Source: Blastococcus sp. HT6-4
GTDB lineage: Bacteria; Actinomycetota; Actinomycetes; Mycobacteriales; Geodermatophilaceae
Assembly (NCBI RefSeq): GCF_039679125.1
Contig: NZ_CP155551.1
Coordinates: forward strand, 310,001-374,000
Reading direction: 5' to 3'
Length of the DNA stretch: 64,000 bases
Numbering within the stretch: the stretch's first letter is position 1; every line of letters begins with the position of its first letter. Made by a program: the position numbers and the translations under genes. This document shows positions 805-6,369 of the stretch, one piece after another. The notes below the pieces were generated by a model that was not told the DNA's origin, searched no databases, and saw only the letters and a program-made list of their open reading frames with translations.

Positions 805-3800
805 GTGACGCGCGTGAAGACCTGGCTCGAGAGCTGGCCGGTGTACCGGCAGCTGACCGGCTCGGACCCGCTGGGGCGCGGCAGGGCGGCGCGCAGCAAG
901 GCGACCGAGGCCGTCGTGGCCCGCACCGCGACCGCGGACCGGGTGGTGAAGAGCGTCTGCCCGTTCTGCGCGGTGGGCTGCGCCCAGGACGTCTACGTGA
1001 AGGACGAGAAGATCGTCCAGATCGAGGGCAACCCGGACTCGCCGATCAACCGCGGCCGGCTGTGCCCCAAGGGCAGCGCCAGCAAGCAGCTGGTCACCAG
1101 CCCGTCCCGGGTCACCACGGTGAAGTACCGCCGTCCGTTCGGGACGGAGTGGGAGGACCTCGAGCTCGACACGGCGATGGAGATGATCGCCGACCGCGTC
1201 CTCGAGGCCCGCCGCAAGGGCTGGCAGGACCGCGACGACGAGGGCCGGAAGCTCGGCCGGACCATGGGGATAGCGAGCCTCGGAGGGGCGACCCTCGACA
1301 ACGAGGAGAACTACCTCATGAAGAAGCTCTACAGCGCCATGGGCGCGATCCAGATCGAGAACCAGGCCCGCATATAGCACTCCGCGACGGTGCCCGGTCT
1401 GGGCGCCTCGTTCGGTCGTGGCGGTGCCACGAACACCCAGCAGGACCTCGCGAACGCCGATTGCATCGTCATCGAGGGTTCCAACATGGCCGAGTGCCAC
1501 CCGGTGGGCTTCCAGTGGGTCACCGAGGCCAAGGCCCGCGGCGCGAAGGTCATCCACATCGACCCGCGGTTCACCCGCACCAGCGCGATCGCCGACCTGC
1601 ACGTCCCGCTGCGCATCGGCACCGACATCGCGTTCCTCGGCGGGCTCATCAACCACGTGCTGAGCAACGACCTGTACTTCAAGGAGTACGTGGTCGCCTA
1701 CACGAACGCCGCCGCCCTGGTCGGTGAGGAGTTCGTCGACTCCGACGACCTCGACGGGCTGTTCTCCGGCTTCGACCCCGAGACCGGCACCTACGACGAG
1801 ACCAGCTGGCAGTACGAGCCGGACGAGCCGCCGCACTCCGGTGCCGACGATCCGGCCGAGGCCGCCGAGCAGGACCGCTCCGACGACCTCCCCGCCGTCC
1901 AGGAGTCCGACCGCGCCCAGGCGGCCGGCAGCGGCGGCCCCCCGATCCCGGCCAAGCCGAAGCGGGACGAGACGCTGCAGCACCCGCGCACGGTGTTCCA
2001 GGTCCTCAAGCGGCACTTCGCCCGCTACACGCCGGAGATGGTCTCGGAGGTCTGCGGCATCGAGCCGGAGGTGTTCGAGCAGGTCGCGCGGTGGGTGACC
2101 GAGAACAGCAACCGCGACCGGACGACGGCGTGGGTGTACTCGGTGGGCTGGACGCAGCACAGCGTCGGCGCGCAGTACATCCGCACCTGCTCGATCCTGC
2201 AGCTGCTGCTGGGCAACATCGGCCGCCCGGGTGGCGGCATCCTGGCGCTGCGCGGGCACGCCAGCATCCAGGGCTCCACCGACGTCCCGACGCTGTACAA
2301 CATCCTGCCCGGCTACCTGCCGATGCCCCACGCGCTGCAGCACGGGACGCTCGAGGAGTACGTGGCCGACGCCGCCGGGAAGGCCGGCTTCTGGGGCAAC
2401 AAGCGGGCCTACATGGTCAGCCTGCTCAAGGCCTGGTGGGGCGACGCCGCCACGGCCGAGAACGACTTCGCGTTCGACTACCTGCCCAAGATCGATGGCG
2501 ACCACAGCTCCTACCGCACGATCGCCGACATGATCGAGGGCAAGGTCTCCGGTTACTTCCTGGTCGGGGAGAACCCCTCGGTCGGGCACCCCAACGGCCG
2601 GATGAACCGGTTCGGGCTGGCCAACCTCGACTGGCTGGTCGTCCGCGACCTGCAGATGATCGAGTCGGCGACCTTCTGGAAGGAGGGCCCGGAGCACGAG
2701 ACCGGGGAGCTGTCCCCGGACTCGATCGGCACCGAGGTCTTCTTCATGCCGGCGGCCACGCACGTGGAGAAGGAAGGCACCTTCACCCAGACCCAGCGGG
2801 TGCTGCAGTGGCGGGACAAGGCGGTCGAGCCGCCGAACGAGGCCCGCAGCGACCTCTGGTTCTACTTCCACCTCGGCCGGATCCTGCGGGAGCGGCTGAA
2901 GGACTCCACCGACCCGCGCGACCGGCCGCTGCTCGACCTCACCTGGGACTACCCGACCCACGGCGAGAAGGCCGAGCCGGACGCCGACGCCGTCCTCCGC
3001 GAGATCAACGGCACCGGCCCCGACGGGCAGACGCTGTCGTCCTTCGTGCAGATGAAGGACGACGGCTCGACCACCGGCGGCTGCTGGATCTACTGCGGCG
3101 TCTACGCCGACGGGGTCAACCAGGCGCGGCGGCGCAGGCCGGGCTCGGAGCAGGGGCAGGCCGCGCTCGAGTGGGGCTGGGCCTGGCCGCTCAACCGGCG
3201 GATCCTCTACAACCGCGCCTCCGCCGACCCGGACGGCAAGCCGTGGAGCGAGCGCAAGAAGTACGTGTACTGGGACGAGGCCGCCGGTGAGTGGACCGGC
3301 GCCGACGTGCCCGACTTCGAGAAGCACAAGCGGCCGGACTACGTGCCGCCGGACGGCGCGCGGGCGCAGGACGCGCTCGCCGGCACCGACCCGTTCGTCA
3401 TGCAGGGCGACGGGAAGGGCTGGCTGTACGCGCCGGCCGGGCTGGTCGACGGCCCGCTGCCGACGCACTACGAGCCGGCCGAGTCCGTCGTCGAGAACGC
3501 CCTGTACAAGCAGCAGGCCAACCCGACCCTCGAGCGGATCCCGGGGCCGTGGAACCGGGAGAACCCGTCGCGCTCCGAGGTCTTCCCGTTCCAGGTGACG
3601 ACCTACCGGCTCACCGAGCACCACACGGCCGGCGGGATGAGCCGGACGCTGCCGTACCTGGCGGAGCTGCAGCCGGAGTTCTTCGTCGAGGTCAGCCCGG
3701 AGCTGGCCACGCTCCGCGGGCTGACCCACGGCGAGTTCGCGACGCTGGTCAGCGCCCGGACGGCGATCGAGGCGAAGGTCCTGGTCACCGAGCGGATGCG

Positions 3801-4107
3801 CCCGATCCGGCTGCGGGACGGCACGGTCGTGCACCAGATCGGCATGCCGTACCACTGGTCCTACAGCGGCCTCTCCACCGGGGACACGGCCAACGACCTG
3901 CTGGGGATCGTGCTGGACGCGAACACCCACATCCAGGAGGACAAGGTCAGCACCGCCGACATCGTCGCCGGACGGCGCCCCCGGGGGCCGGCGCTGATCG
4001 ACTTCGTGGAGGAGTACCGGCAACGGGCCGGGGTGGCCTCGGGCCGGGTGGGCGTCAACGGGCGCGATCCGGTCGAGGCGTCGGCCGGCGAGGGGTCCAC
4101 CCCGTGA
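805..4107 (+). CDS. fdhA: Formate dehydrogenase catalytic subunit, selenocysteine read from in-frame TAG
   Basis: This is the molybdenum/tungsten bis-MGD subunit that oxidises formate to CO2. Read through a TAG at 1375-1377 it gives 1100 residues, close to the FdnG/FdhA family. The N-terminal [4Fe-4S] ligands are C52, C55, C59 and C87, with the conserved CPKG just after. Residue 191, coded by TAG, sits in the context ARI-x-HSATV, exactly where FdnG has Sec and other homologues have Cys. The frame then continues to 4107 with typical family sequence. GTG 805 (GGGTGG upstream) or GTG 814 is the likely start; the protein then opens with the family's KTWLESWPVYRQL. No twin-arginine signal is seen. 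A hydrophilic, acidic and proline-rich insert follows at about residues 335-390. The beta and NrfD-type subunits follow downstream. Expression must need a SelB/tRNA-Sec system with a CUA anticodon, which is not in this window. Confidence 0.95.
1375..1377 (+). other. In-frame TAG acting as selenocysteine codon
   Basis: The TAG is flanked on both sides by uninterrupted formate dehydrogenase sequence in the same frame. It occupies the metal-ligand position that is Sec (UGA) or Cys in all homologues I know. Turning TGA or TGC/TGT into TAG takes two base changes, so a single-base sequencing error from a normal codon is unlikely. As I recall, UAG-programmed selenocysteine was demonstrated in Geodermatophilus and Blastococcus, which fits the look of this genome. 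Confidence 0.9.
1377..1427 (+). promoter_or_regulatory. SECIS hairpin immediately downstream of the TAG
   Basis: The apical stem pairs 1389-1395 with 1401-1407 (seven pairs, one U-G) around the five-base loop GGTCT at 1396-1400. This is the same loop as in the Escherichia coli fdhF SECIS, and it lies at the same distance from the codon (loop begins at base 19 after the stop). A lower stem pairs 1382-1388 with 1415-1421 (one G-U), and a basal stem pairs 1377-1380 with 1424-1427, separated by a 7-base bulge and a small internal loop. SelB binds this loop in known systems. Pairing was worked out by eye. Confidence 0.9.
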
Positions 4108-4243: not shown

Positions 4244-5305
4244 ATGACGTCGATCAGCTCGGCGAGCCCGGCACTCACCGGGAACGATCAGAAGAACCGG
4301 CTGTTCGGGCCGCTGCCGGACGTGTCGGCGGACGCCGGCTACGTCGAGGAGCACCCCGCGCGGGTCGGGTTCTTCACCGATACCTCGGTGTGCATCGGGT
4401 GCAAGGCCTGCGAGGTGGCCTGCAAGGAGTGGAACACCCTCCCGATGGACGACTCGCACGGCGTGCGCGACACCATGGGCCTGTCGGGCATGAGCTACGA
4501 CAACACCGGTCAGCTGGGCGCCAACTCGTGGCGGCACGTGGCGTTCGTCGAGCAGACCCGCACCGTCGACCTCCCGATGCCCACGTTCGGTCGCCCGGGC
4601 GACGACCGCCAGGGCAGCGGTCCCTCTCCGGCGGCGGGCGGCGGGGCGAGCCTGGCCGACGCGCAGCAGAGCGTGCTCAACGCCGAGGCGCTCAGCGAGT
4701 TCGACCCGCAGACCGGCCAGACCGGCGCGGACAAGCAGATCCGCTGGCTGATGAGCTCCGACGTCTGCAAGCACTGCACGCACGCGGGCTGCCTCGACGT
4801 CTGCCCGACCGGTGCGCTGTTCCGGACCGAGTTCGGCACCGTCGTCGTCCAGCAGGACATCTGCAACGGCTGCGGCTACTGCGTGCCGGCCTGCCCGTAC
4901 GGGGTCATCGACCAGCGCAAGGACGACGGCCGGGTCTTCAAGTGCACGATGTGCTACGACCGGCTGACCGACGGCAAGGCGCCGGCCTGCGCCACCGCCT
5001 GCCCCACCCAGTCGATCCAGTTCGGCGACCTCGACGAGCTGCAGGCCCGGGCCGACGCGCGGCTGGCGACGCTCAAGGAGCAGGGCGTGGAGACCGCCCG
5101 GCTCTACGGCCGGGACGAGAACGACGGCGTCGGCGGTGCCGGGGCGTTCTTCCTGCTGCTCGACGAGCCGGAGGTCTACGGCCTGCCGCCGGACCCGGTG
5201 GTGACCACCCGGGACGTGCCGGCGATGTGGAAGGCCGCCGCCCGGGGCGCGGCGTTGATCATCGGCGTGGCGGTCTCGGCCGTCCTCGGCTCACGGAAGC
5301 GGTAG
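4244..5305 (+). CDS. fdhB: Formate dehydrogenase iron-sulfur (beta) subunit
   Basis: A 353-residue electron-transfer subunit of the FdnH/HybA ferredoxin family. It carries four cysteine clusters for [4Fe-4S] centres: CIGCKACEVAC (from residue 50), CKHCTHAGCLDVC, CNGCGYCVPAC and CTMCY with CATACPT. A single hydrophobic segment near the C terminus (AALIIGVAVSAVLG) would anchor it to the membrane, as in FdnH. ATG 4244 follows a strong GGGGGAGGGAA. It lies 136 bases after the catalytic subunit and only two bases before the membrane subunit, so it should move electrons from the catalytic subunit to the membrane subunit. Its own stop is TAG (5303-5305) with no SECIS-like hairpin noticed, so TAG still terminates in this genome. 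Confidence 0.93.
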   Translation: MTSISSASPALTGNDQKNRLFGPLPDVSADAGYVEEHPARVGFFTDTSVCIGCKACEVACKEWNTLPMDDSHGVRDTMGLSGMSYDNTGQLGANSWRHVAFVEQTRTVDLPMPTFGRPGDDRQGSGPSPAAGGGASLADAQQSVLNAEALSEFDPQTGQTGADKQIRWLMSSDVCKHCTHAGCLDVCPTGALFRTEFGTVVVQQDICNGCGYCVPACPYGVIDQRKDDGRVFKCTMCYDRLTDGKAPACATACPTQSIQFGDLDELQARADARLATLKEQGVETARLYGRDENDGVGGAGAFFLLLDEPEVYGLPPDPVVTTRDVPAMWKAAARGAALIIGVAVSAVLGSRKR

Positions 5306-5307
5306 CG

Positions 5308-6369
5308 ATGACCGAGGGGATCACCACGCCCGGTGCCGGCTGGCGACGGGCGGACGGCCCGGGGGAGCGCAAGCCCCCGAAGCGCCACCGCAGGGGCGGC
5401 GGCCGGCGGCGCCGCTCGGCGGAGGTCGCAATGGTCGACGACGTCGAGTTCACCTCGTACTACGGGCGGCCGATCATCAAGCCGCCGGTGTGGAAGACCC
5501 CCGACGTCCCGCTGTACCTGTTCCTCGGCGGCGCGGCCGGCTCCTCGGCGGTCCTCGCCGCCGTCGCCGATCTGAGCGACCGGCCGGCCCTGACCCGGGT
5601 GGGCCGGCTGGTGGCCGGCGGCGGCTCGATCGCCTCGGTGGGCTTCCTGATCCACGACCTGGGCCGGCCCGAGCGGTTCCTGCACATGCTGCGGGTCTTC
5701 AAGCCGACCTCCCCGCTGTCGGTGGGCACCTACATCCTGTCGCCGTTCAGCGCGGCGGCCGGTGCGACGGCGGCGGTGGAGCTGCTGGGCTGGTTCCCGC
5801 GGCTCAAGCGGTTCGGCGGGGTGGTGTCGGCGCTGTTCGGCGGGCCGATGGCCACCTACACCGCGGTGCTGCTGGCGAACACCGCGGTGCCGTCGTGGCA
5901 CGACCCGCACGAGCAGCTGCCGTTCGTCTTCGCCGGCTCCGCCATGGCCGCGGGCGGCGGGCTGACCATGATCTTCACGCCGGTGGCCGAGGCCGGGCCG
6001 TCGCGGAAGATGGCGATCGCGGGTGCGGCGGTCGAGCTGGCCGCGATGCACAAGGTGGAGAACGACCACGGGATCGTCAGCGAGCCGTACCACGAGGGCC
6101 GGGCCGGGACGCTGATGCGGGCGGCGAAGACCTGCACCGCGGTGGGCGCCGGGCTCACCGCCGTCGCGGGACGCACCCGGATCGGCGCGATCGCCTCGGG
6201 CACGCTGCTGGCCGCCGGGTCGCTGCTCACCCGCTTCGGGGTGTTCGACGCCGGCATGGCCAGTGCCCGCGACCCGAAGTACACCGTCGTGCCCCAGCGC
6301 GAGCGCATGGCCGCCCGGGAGGCCGGCCGGCAGGTCGGCGAGGGCGAGGGCCGCTCCGTCACCCGCTGA
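5308..6369 (+). CDS. NrfD-type membrane subunit of formate dehydrogenase
   Basis: A 353-residue polytopic protein of the NrfD/PsrC family, with an arginine-rich cytoplasmic N terminus (residues 12-36) and about eight hydrophobic helices. Conserved family features include the first helix starting PLYLFLGGAAGSS and the GRPERFLHMLR loop. Such subunits take electrons from the ferredoxin-like partner and pass them to quinone without haem, unlike the cytochrome b gamma subunit of E. coli FdnI. ATG 5308 starts two bases after the beta stop and has GGAAGCGG upstream. The coding frame is open well upstream, but only this start avoids overlapping the beta subunit. Confidence 0.88.
   Translation: MTEGITTPGAGWRRADGPGERKPPKRHRRGGGRRRRSAEVAMVDDVEFTSYYGRPIIKPPVWKTPDVPLYLFLGGAAGSSAVLAAVADLSDRPALTRVGRLVAGGGSIASVGFLIHDLGRPERFLHMLRVFKPTSPLSVGTYILSPFSAAAGATAAVELLGWFPRLKRFGGVVSALFGGPMATYTAVLLANTAVPSWHDPHEQLPFVFAGSAMAAGGGLTMIFTPVAEAGPSRKMAIAGAAVELAAMHKVENDHGIVSEPYHEGRAGTLMRAAKTCTAVGAGLTAVAGRTRIGAIASGTLLAAGSLLTRFGVFDAGMASARDPKYTVVPQRERMAAREAGRQVGEGEGRSVTR

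Follow-up and report, generated by a model that had tools for sequence, protein, structure and literature searches.

We read the formate dehydrogenase (FDH) of this Blastococcus genome as a selenoprotein whose selenocysteine (Sec) codon is UAG, which would be decoded by a tRNASec with a CUA anticodon together with SelA, SelB, SelD, and a SECIS hairpin, and we take this assignment to have been inherited from a single codon switch. We give this reading a probability of about 95%. It draws on features visible in the genomes themselves: the codon, the hairpin, the tRNA, selA, selB, selD, release factor 1, and the conservation and distribution of codon and anticodon. The case is a well-supported instance of an already known code variant and is not new.

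The formate dehydrogenase operon and its in-frame TAG

The window, the whole 64,000-nucleotide stretch of DNA analyzed (G000:C1:310001-374000), belongs to a one-contig genome of 4,297,415 bases. This genome groups with Blastococcus (Geodermatophilaceae); G003, G006, G007, G015, and G022, members of the window's genus (g1), are assigned to Blastococcus. The relevant features are as follows.

814..4107, + strand: FDH catalytic subunit (predicted selenoprotein), read through TAG; NF041513 positions 2-1067, 1911.8 bits (cut-off 1400)
1375..1377, + strand: in-frame TAG, predicted to be read as Sec; coincides with TGA or Cys codons of orthologues
1389..1407, + strand: SECIS apical hairpin, 7-bp stem 1389-1395/1401-1407 with loop GGTCT at 1396-1400; supported by fold, covariation, and decay in Cys orthologues
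4244..5305, + strand: iron-sulphur beta subunit, same operon; TIGR01582 182.3 bits, below the cut-off of 334.7; Fer4 domains
5308..6369, + strand: NrfD-like membrane subunit; PF03916 48.2 bits (cut-off 25.8) on 5437-6369

The iron-sulphur and NrfD-like membrane subunits downstream identify the locus as an FDH operon. The original prediction described a frame that is continuous on both sides of TAG 1375-1377, and this was borne out by a profile search, in which the flanking frames 730-1377 and 1390-4107 matched adjoining parts (2-185 and 192-1067) of the same NCBI model, NF041513, which covers the TAG site. Read from GTG 814 with TAG as a residue, the protein has 1097 residues and reaches the NF041513 family score. 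An alternative start is GTG 805; GTG 814 lies nearer the start of the model. The Sec residue had been numbered 191, which is correct if translation begins at GTG 805; from GTG 814, it is residue 188. The placement of the TAG at the Sec site of FDH agrees with the orthologues, which have TGA or Cys there.

In-frame stops are usually caused by nonsense mutation or sequencing error, and the TAG could in principle mark a decaying gene. We regard this as exceedingly improbable, given that a single TAG is present in 118 of the 119 family matches listed that share at least 60% identity and span the codon (none has TGA), and that the genome carries TAG in both of its FDH copies as well as in its UGSC and AhpC-like genes. 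The position of the TAG was verified in sequence for 39 genes. It is this conservation across the family that settles that the observation is real, as the fold of the hairpin alone is moderately unusual. The lone exception, G079 (genus g8), has lost the stretch with the codon. Both of its FDH copies (L420, L421) lack the Sec codon and the hairpin and have a changed frame, and the losses are unequal; the missing stretch may be a true loss or an assembly error at a strong hairpin.

Three further genes of the genome carry a UAG of this kind. A second FDH (FDH 2) has it at the Sec-type site (match C1:3505777-3506220). A UGSC gene (match C1:2232966-2233391) scores 146.1 when read through, against a UGSC cut-off of 125; among the UGSC matches listed, none has TGA and some have no stop at all. 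The third is an AhpC-like candidate (PF00578 42.5 bits, cut-off 26) with its UAG at C1:117747 and counterparts in G007 and G008, and a hairpin follows this UAG at a somewhat greater distance; an NCBIfam search gave no family name for it. In several genomes (e.g. L352, G008:C1:3436304), UAG-containing UGSC domains lie within far longer open frames, which may represent a fused protein.

A SECIS hairpin that accompanies selenocysteine

The seven-pair apical stem, the GGTCT loop, and the spacing of Escherichia coli fdhF, all part of the original prediction, were found on comparison with the fdhF sequence: the loop begins 19 bases past the TAG codon, and in fdhF, TGA is followed by 18 bases and then GGTCT. 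A lower stem had also been proposed; folds vary among orthologues in this region, and it is unsupported as a conserved part. The fold of the strand has an energy of −31.1 kcal/mol (z −2.28), with 4 of 200 shuffles equally good, so that, taken alone, it is only moderately unusual. When the window was screened loosely for TAG codons in open, GC3-rich frames with a hairpin behind them, four sites including TAG 1375-1377 were returned, and Rfam at gathering thresholds had no match anywhere in the window.

Covariation was evaluated in an alignment of 17 UAG hairpins (12 FDH and 5 UGSC, 16 of them distinct), whose rows were hand-chosen and come from related genomes and hence do not represent independent events. 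In this alignment, 96.4% of cells pair, compared with at most 56.3% when the partner strand is slid by one to three columns. Six of the seven stem pairs have changed on both sides among the 16 distinct rows, a count matched by 3 of 500 shuffles, and no shuffle of 500 reached the covariation score of the stem. The excess of further pair types in the stem over shuffles is weak (32 of 500 as high).

The hairpin also follows the identity of the residue. Six or seven of the seven stem pairs are kept in the 39 TAG and 27 TGA FDH genes inspected, as against three to six in 22 Cys genes (Mann-Whitney P = 1.5 × 10−13 for TAG and 1.2 × 10−9 for TGA); 30 of the 39 TAG rows are the best-scoring family matches and thus not a random draw. 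The Cys set originally held 25 rows, three of which were spurious frames and were left out; two others labeled Cys, L246 and L247, departed from the motif and were inspected separately. The hairpin accompanies Sec irrespective of whether the stop codon is TAG or TGA.

A SECIS model built from the 17 rows was used to search the genome, with 150 of 15,168 candidates scored. It hit FDH 1, FDH 2, and UGSC with E values from 8.5 × 10−14 to 5.5 × 10−11; all three are among the model's own rows, and these hits therefore provide no independent support. The AhpC-like candidate is missing among the matches listed. We rejected a fourth hit at C1:2695302 (E = 5.5 × 10−5), a TAG with no surrounding coding frame, and likewise a similar hit in G007.

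Decoding machinery and termination at UAG

The single tRNASec found in the genome lies at C1:1309686-1309777 and has a CUA anticodon (CTA in the DNA; RF01852 65.7 bits, cut-off 47). The other RF01852 match above the cut-off was discarded as a tRNA-Ser with a TGA anticodon. Upstream of the tRNASec on the opposite strand is selD, and downstream are selA and selB, each above its cut-off: SelA at 423.3 (TIGR00474, cut-off 267.9), SelB at 288.2 (TIGR00475, cut-off 242.25, with an aligned part covering only profile positions 2-340 of 581), and SelD at 387.8 (TIGR00476, cut-off 125). The check suggested at the outset, a search for a CUA tRNASec, selA, selB, and selD, thus recovered every element, with the sel genes beside the tRNA, and the genome is not one that has only a UCA tRNASec or none.

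A UAG codon and a CUA anticodon are equally the hallmarks of pyrrolysine, and ARAGORN labels this tRNA as tRNA-Pyl; weak matches to the PylS model also occur in 92 of the 112 family genomes. Nevertheless, the tRNA fits the tRNASec family and adjoins selA, and PylS exceeds its cut-off in none of the 112 (best 28.3 bits against 178.15). Of 14 control genomes, 13 likewise gave weak PylS matches (one above the cut-off), as expected from related synthetases. Pyrrolysine would also leave the hairpin and its decay in Cys orthologues unexplained, and we consider its probability negligible. ARAGORN gives the name tRNA-Pyl to the CUA tRNASec genes of Geodermatophilaceae in 102 of 102 cases (e.g. L001 1501-1596), which probably gives rise to annotation errors.

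An ordinary amber suppressor tRNA could instead place a common amino acid at UAG. The tRNA search of the genome scored 150 of 976 candidates, which makes a second CUA tRNA formally possible, and an ordinary-type tRNA with this anticodon does exist in a contig of another organism (L212). Against this, the codon occupies a site that is Sec (TGA) or Cys in orthologues, the hairpin is retained in TAG and TGA genes and not in Cys genes, release factor 1 is encoded in the genome, and the next gene of the operon, fdhB, ends in TAG (5303-5305); suppression is accordingly a very improbable explanation. This terminator also indicates that UAG still ends translation. A crude gene call covering the window and L009 gave 35 frames, of which 32 stop at TGA and three at TAG, the Sec codon itself being one of the latter.

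Our preferred reading is therefore Sec insertion at UAG directed by SECIS. SelA, using selenophosphate supplied by SelD, would turn seryl-tRNASec (CUA) into Sec-tRNASec, and SelB would bind Sec-tRNASec and the hairpin and bring the tRNA to UAG, where it would compete with release factor 1. Other UAGs, such as the one at the end of the next operon gene, would continue to act as terminators, since they have no hairpin of this kind behind them. From these elements we infer the insertion of Sec, its efficiency, and the activity of the enzyme.

Distribution and origin of the UAG assignment

A tRNASec was found in 108 of the 112 family genomes, and the four without one are 72-82% complete. ARAGORN anticodons at all 110 places divide these genomes into 101 with CUA and seven with UCA only (genera g5, g6, and g7). 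The anticodon arms of the CUA and UCA tRNAs of the family differ in two positions of the anticodon itself and in the loop-closing pair. Among 298 sampled genomes of the order, the CUA pattern is found in 52, namely 51 Geodermatophilaceae and G230. A scan for CUA tRNAs gave 93 stretches, and the 80 listed, apart from the odd records described below, come from Blastococcus, Geodermatophilus, Modestobacter, Klenkia, Goekera, Trujillonella, other Geodermatophilaceae, and one "Frankiales" MAG. Geodermatophilaceae-type tRNAs are also carried by L171, the 4.8-kb contig of a "Jatrophihabitans" MAG (the same genome as G230), which is probably misbinned, and by L162, an unverified "Bacillus" record that we take to be misbinned or misnamed.

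Two other CUA records were rejected: L212 fits the ordinary tRNA family and not tRNASec, and L219 is a match overlying an ordinary tRNA. The L212 tRNA (2779-2868, on an Erysipelotrichaceae MAG contig) may be an amber suppressor; its contig has a phage-like appearance, judged from the open frames only.

The codon follows a similar pattern. A more distant FDH, carrying TGA at this site, is present in the UCA genomes of genus g7. Across 394 genomes of the class, 114 FDH matches comprise three with TAG, 87 with TGA, and 24 with no stop. Two of the TAG matches are from this Blastococcus genome and one is from another member of its genus, so that the 111 matches outside the genus include none with TAG. 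Of the 24 matches with no stop, 23 have Cys at the site and the remaining one does not extend to it.

We also built a SelA tree of 30 rows, 13 of them CUA, with 11 outgroup genomes picked for their TGA FDH. The 13 CUA rows form a single group (100/100) whose sister is the UCA genus g5 (95/91); g6 and g7 fall outside as a group of their own (100/98). Inner and deeper forks are weak, and G437 and G635 are on long branches. Since the CUA rows are one group with UCA genera around it, UGA is likely ancestral. The best reading is a single inherited switch, in which tRNASec and target codons changed from UGA to UAG once in an ancestor of most Geodermatophilaceae.

The original prediction had instead suggested an independent instance of the variation. 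We found no support for such an origin and judge it highly unlikely: the genome clusters with the family for which UAG-Sec is published, the CUA tRNA is present in 101 of the 108 family genomes that bear tRNASec, and the 13 sampled CUA genomes are one SelA group.

One of the 101 CUA genomes, Geodermatophilus sp. LHW52908 (G058), has a second tRNASec with a UCA anticodon (L088 1169-1263; G058:C17:1173-1263), with transposase genes close by. The first 20 kb of this contig have a lower GC content (0.697). The genome has one SelA and one SelB above cut-offs, both on a different contig from the UCA tRNASec, and no convincing UGA-Sec gene was found within 40 kb of that tRNA. A plasmid search with the 4.4 kb around it returned five records with short matches at the place of the tRNA. 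That this strain uses two Sec codons in one cell is rather doubtful.

Significance and comparison with known systems

UAG-Sec demonstrates that what fixes the Sec codon is the anticodon of tRNASec together with the SECIS element and not UGA itself, which has relevance for the designed placement of Sec at UAG. For annotation, the consequence is that the tRNA is mislabeled as tRNA-Pyl and UAG-Sec genes look broken; the splitting of this gene by automatic annotation, as originally predicted, is plausible. Having UCA genera (g5, g6, and g7) and CUA genera within one family opens the joint change of tRNA and target codons to study, and the survey makes the codon switch, between anticodons that differ at two positions, testable.

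UAG-Sec in Geodermatophilaceae was reportedly described by Mukai et al. in 2016. In our literature search, the matches listed contained no further paper on the Sec codon of this family, and a family-wide anticodon map and the genome with two tRNASec genes were absent among them. The original prediction named Geodermatophilus and Blastococcus as earlier cases of UAG-Sec, and the variant is in print for their family: section 17 of PMC5330540 describes three Geodermatophilaceae genomes with CUA tRNASec, cites FDH and UGSC selenoproteins as reported earlier (its ref. 56), and adds an AhpC with Sec-TAG for Blastococcus saxobsidens DD2. More broadly, recoding to Sec extends in some species to UAG, UAA, and ten sense codons, according to PMC10778597.

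Compared with the family cases in PMC5330540, ours shares the family, the anticodon, and the protein families (FDH, UGSC, and AhpC), with the AhpC-like gene here being a candidate; what is added is one more genome, carrying two FDH copies, together with the 112-genome survey and the genera that bear UCA. Pyrrolysine decoding has UAG and the CUA anticodon in common with this system, which has no PylS above the cut-off and possesses tRNASec, SelA, and SECIS instead. With canonical UGA-Sec, as in E. coli fdhF, it shares selA, selB, selD, tRNASec, and the GGTCT motif 19 bases past the codon, and it differs in that the codon is UAG and the anticodon CUA.
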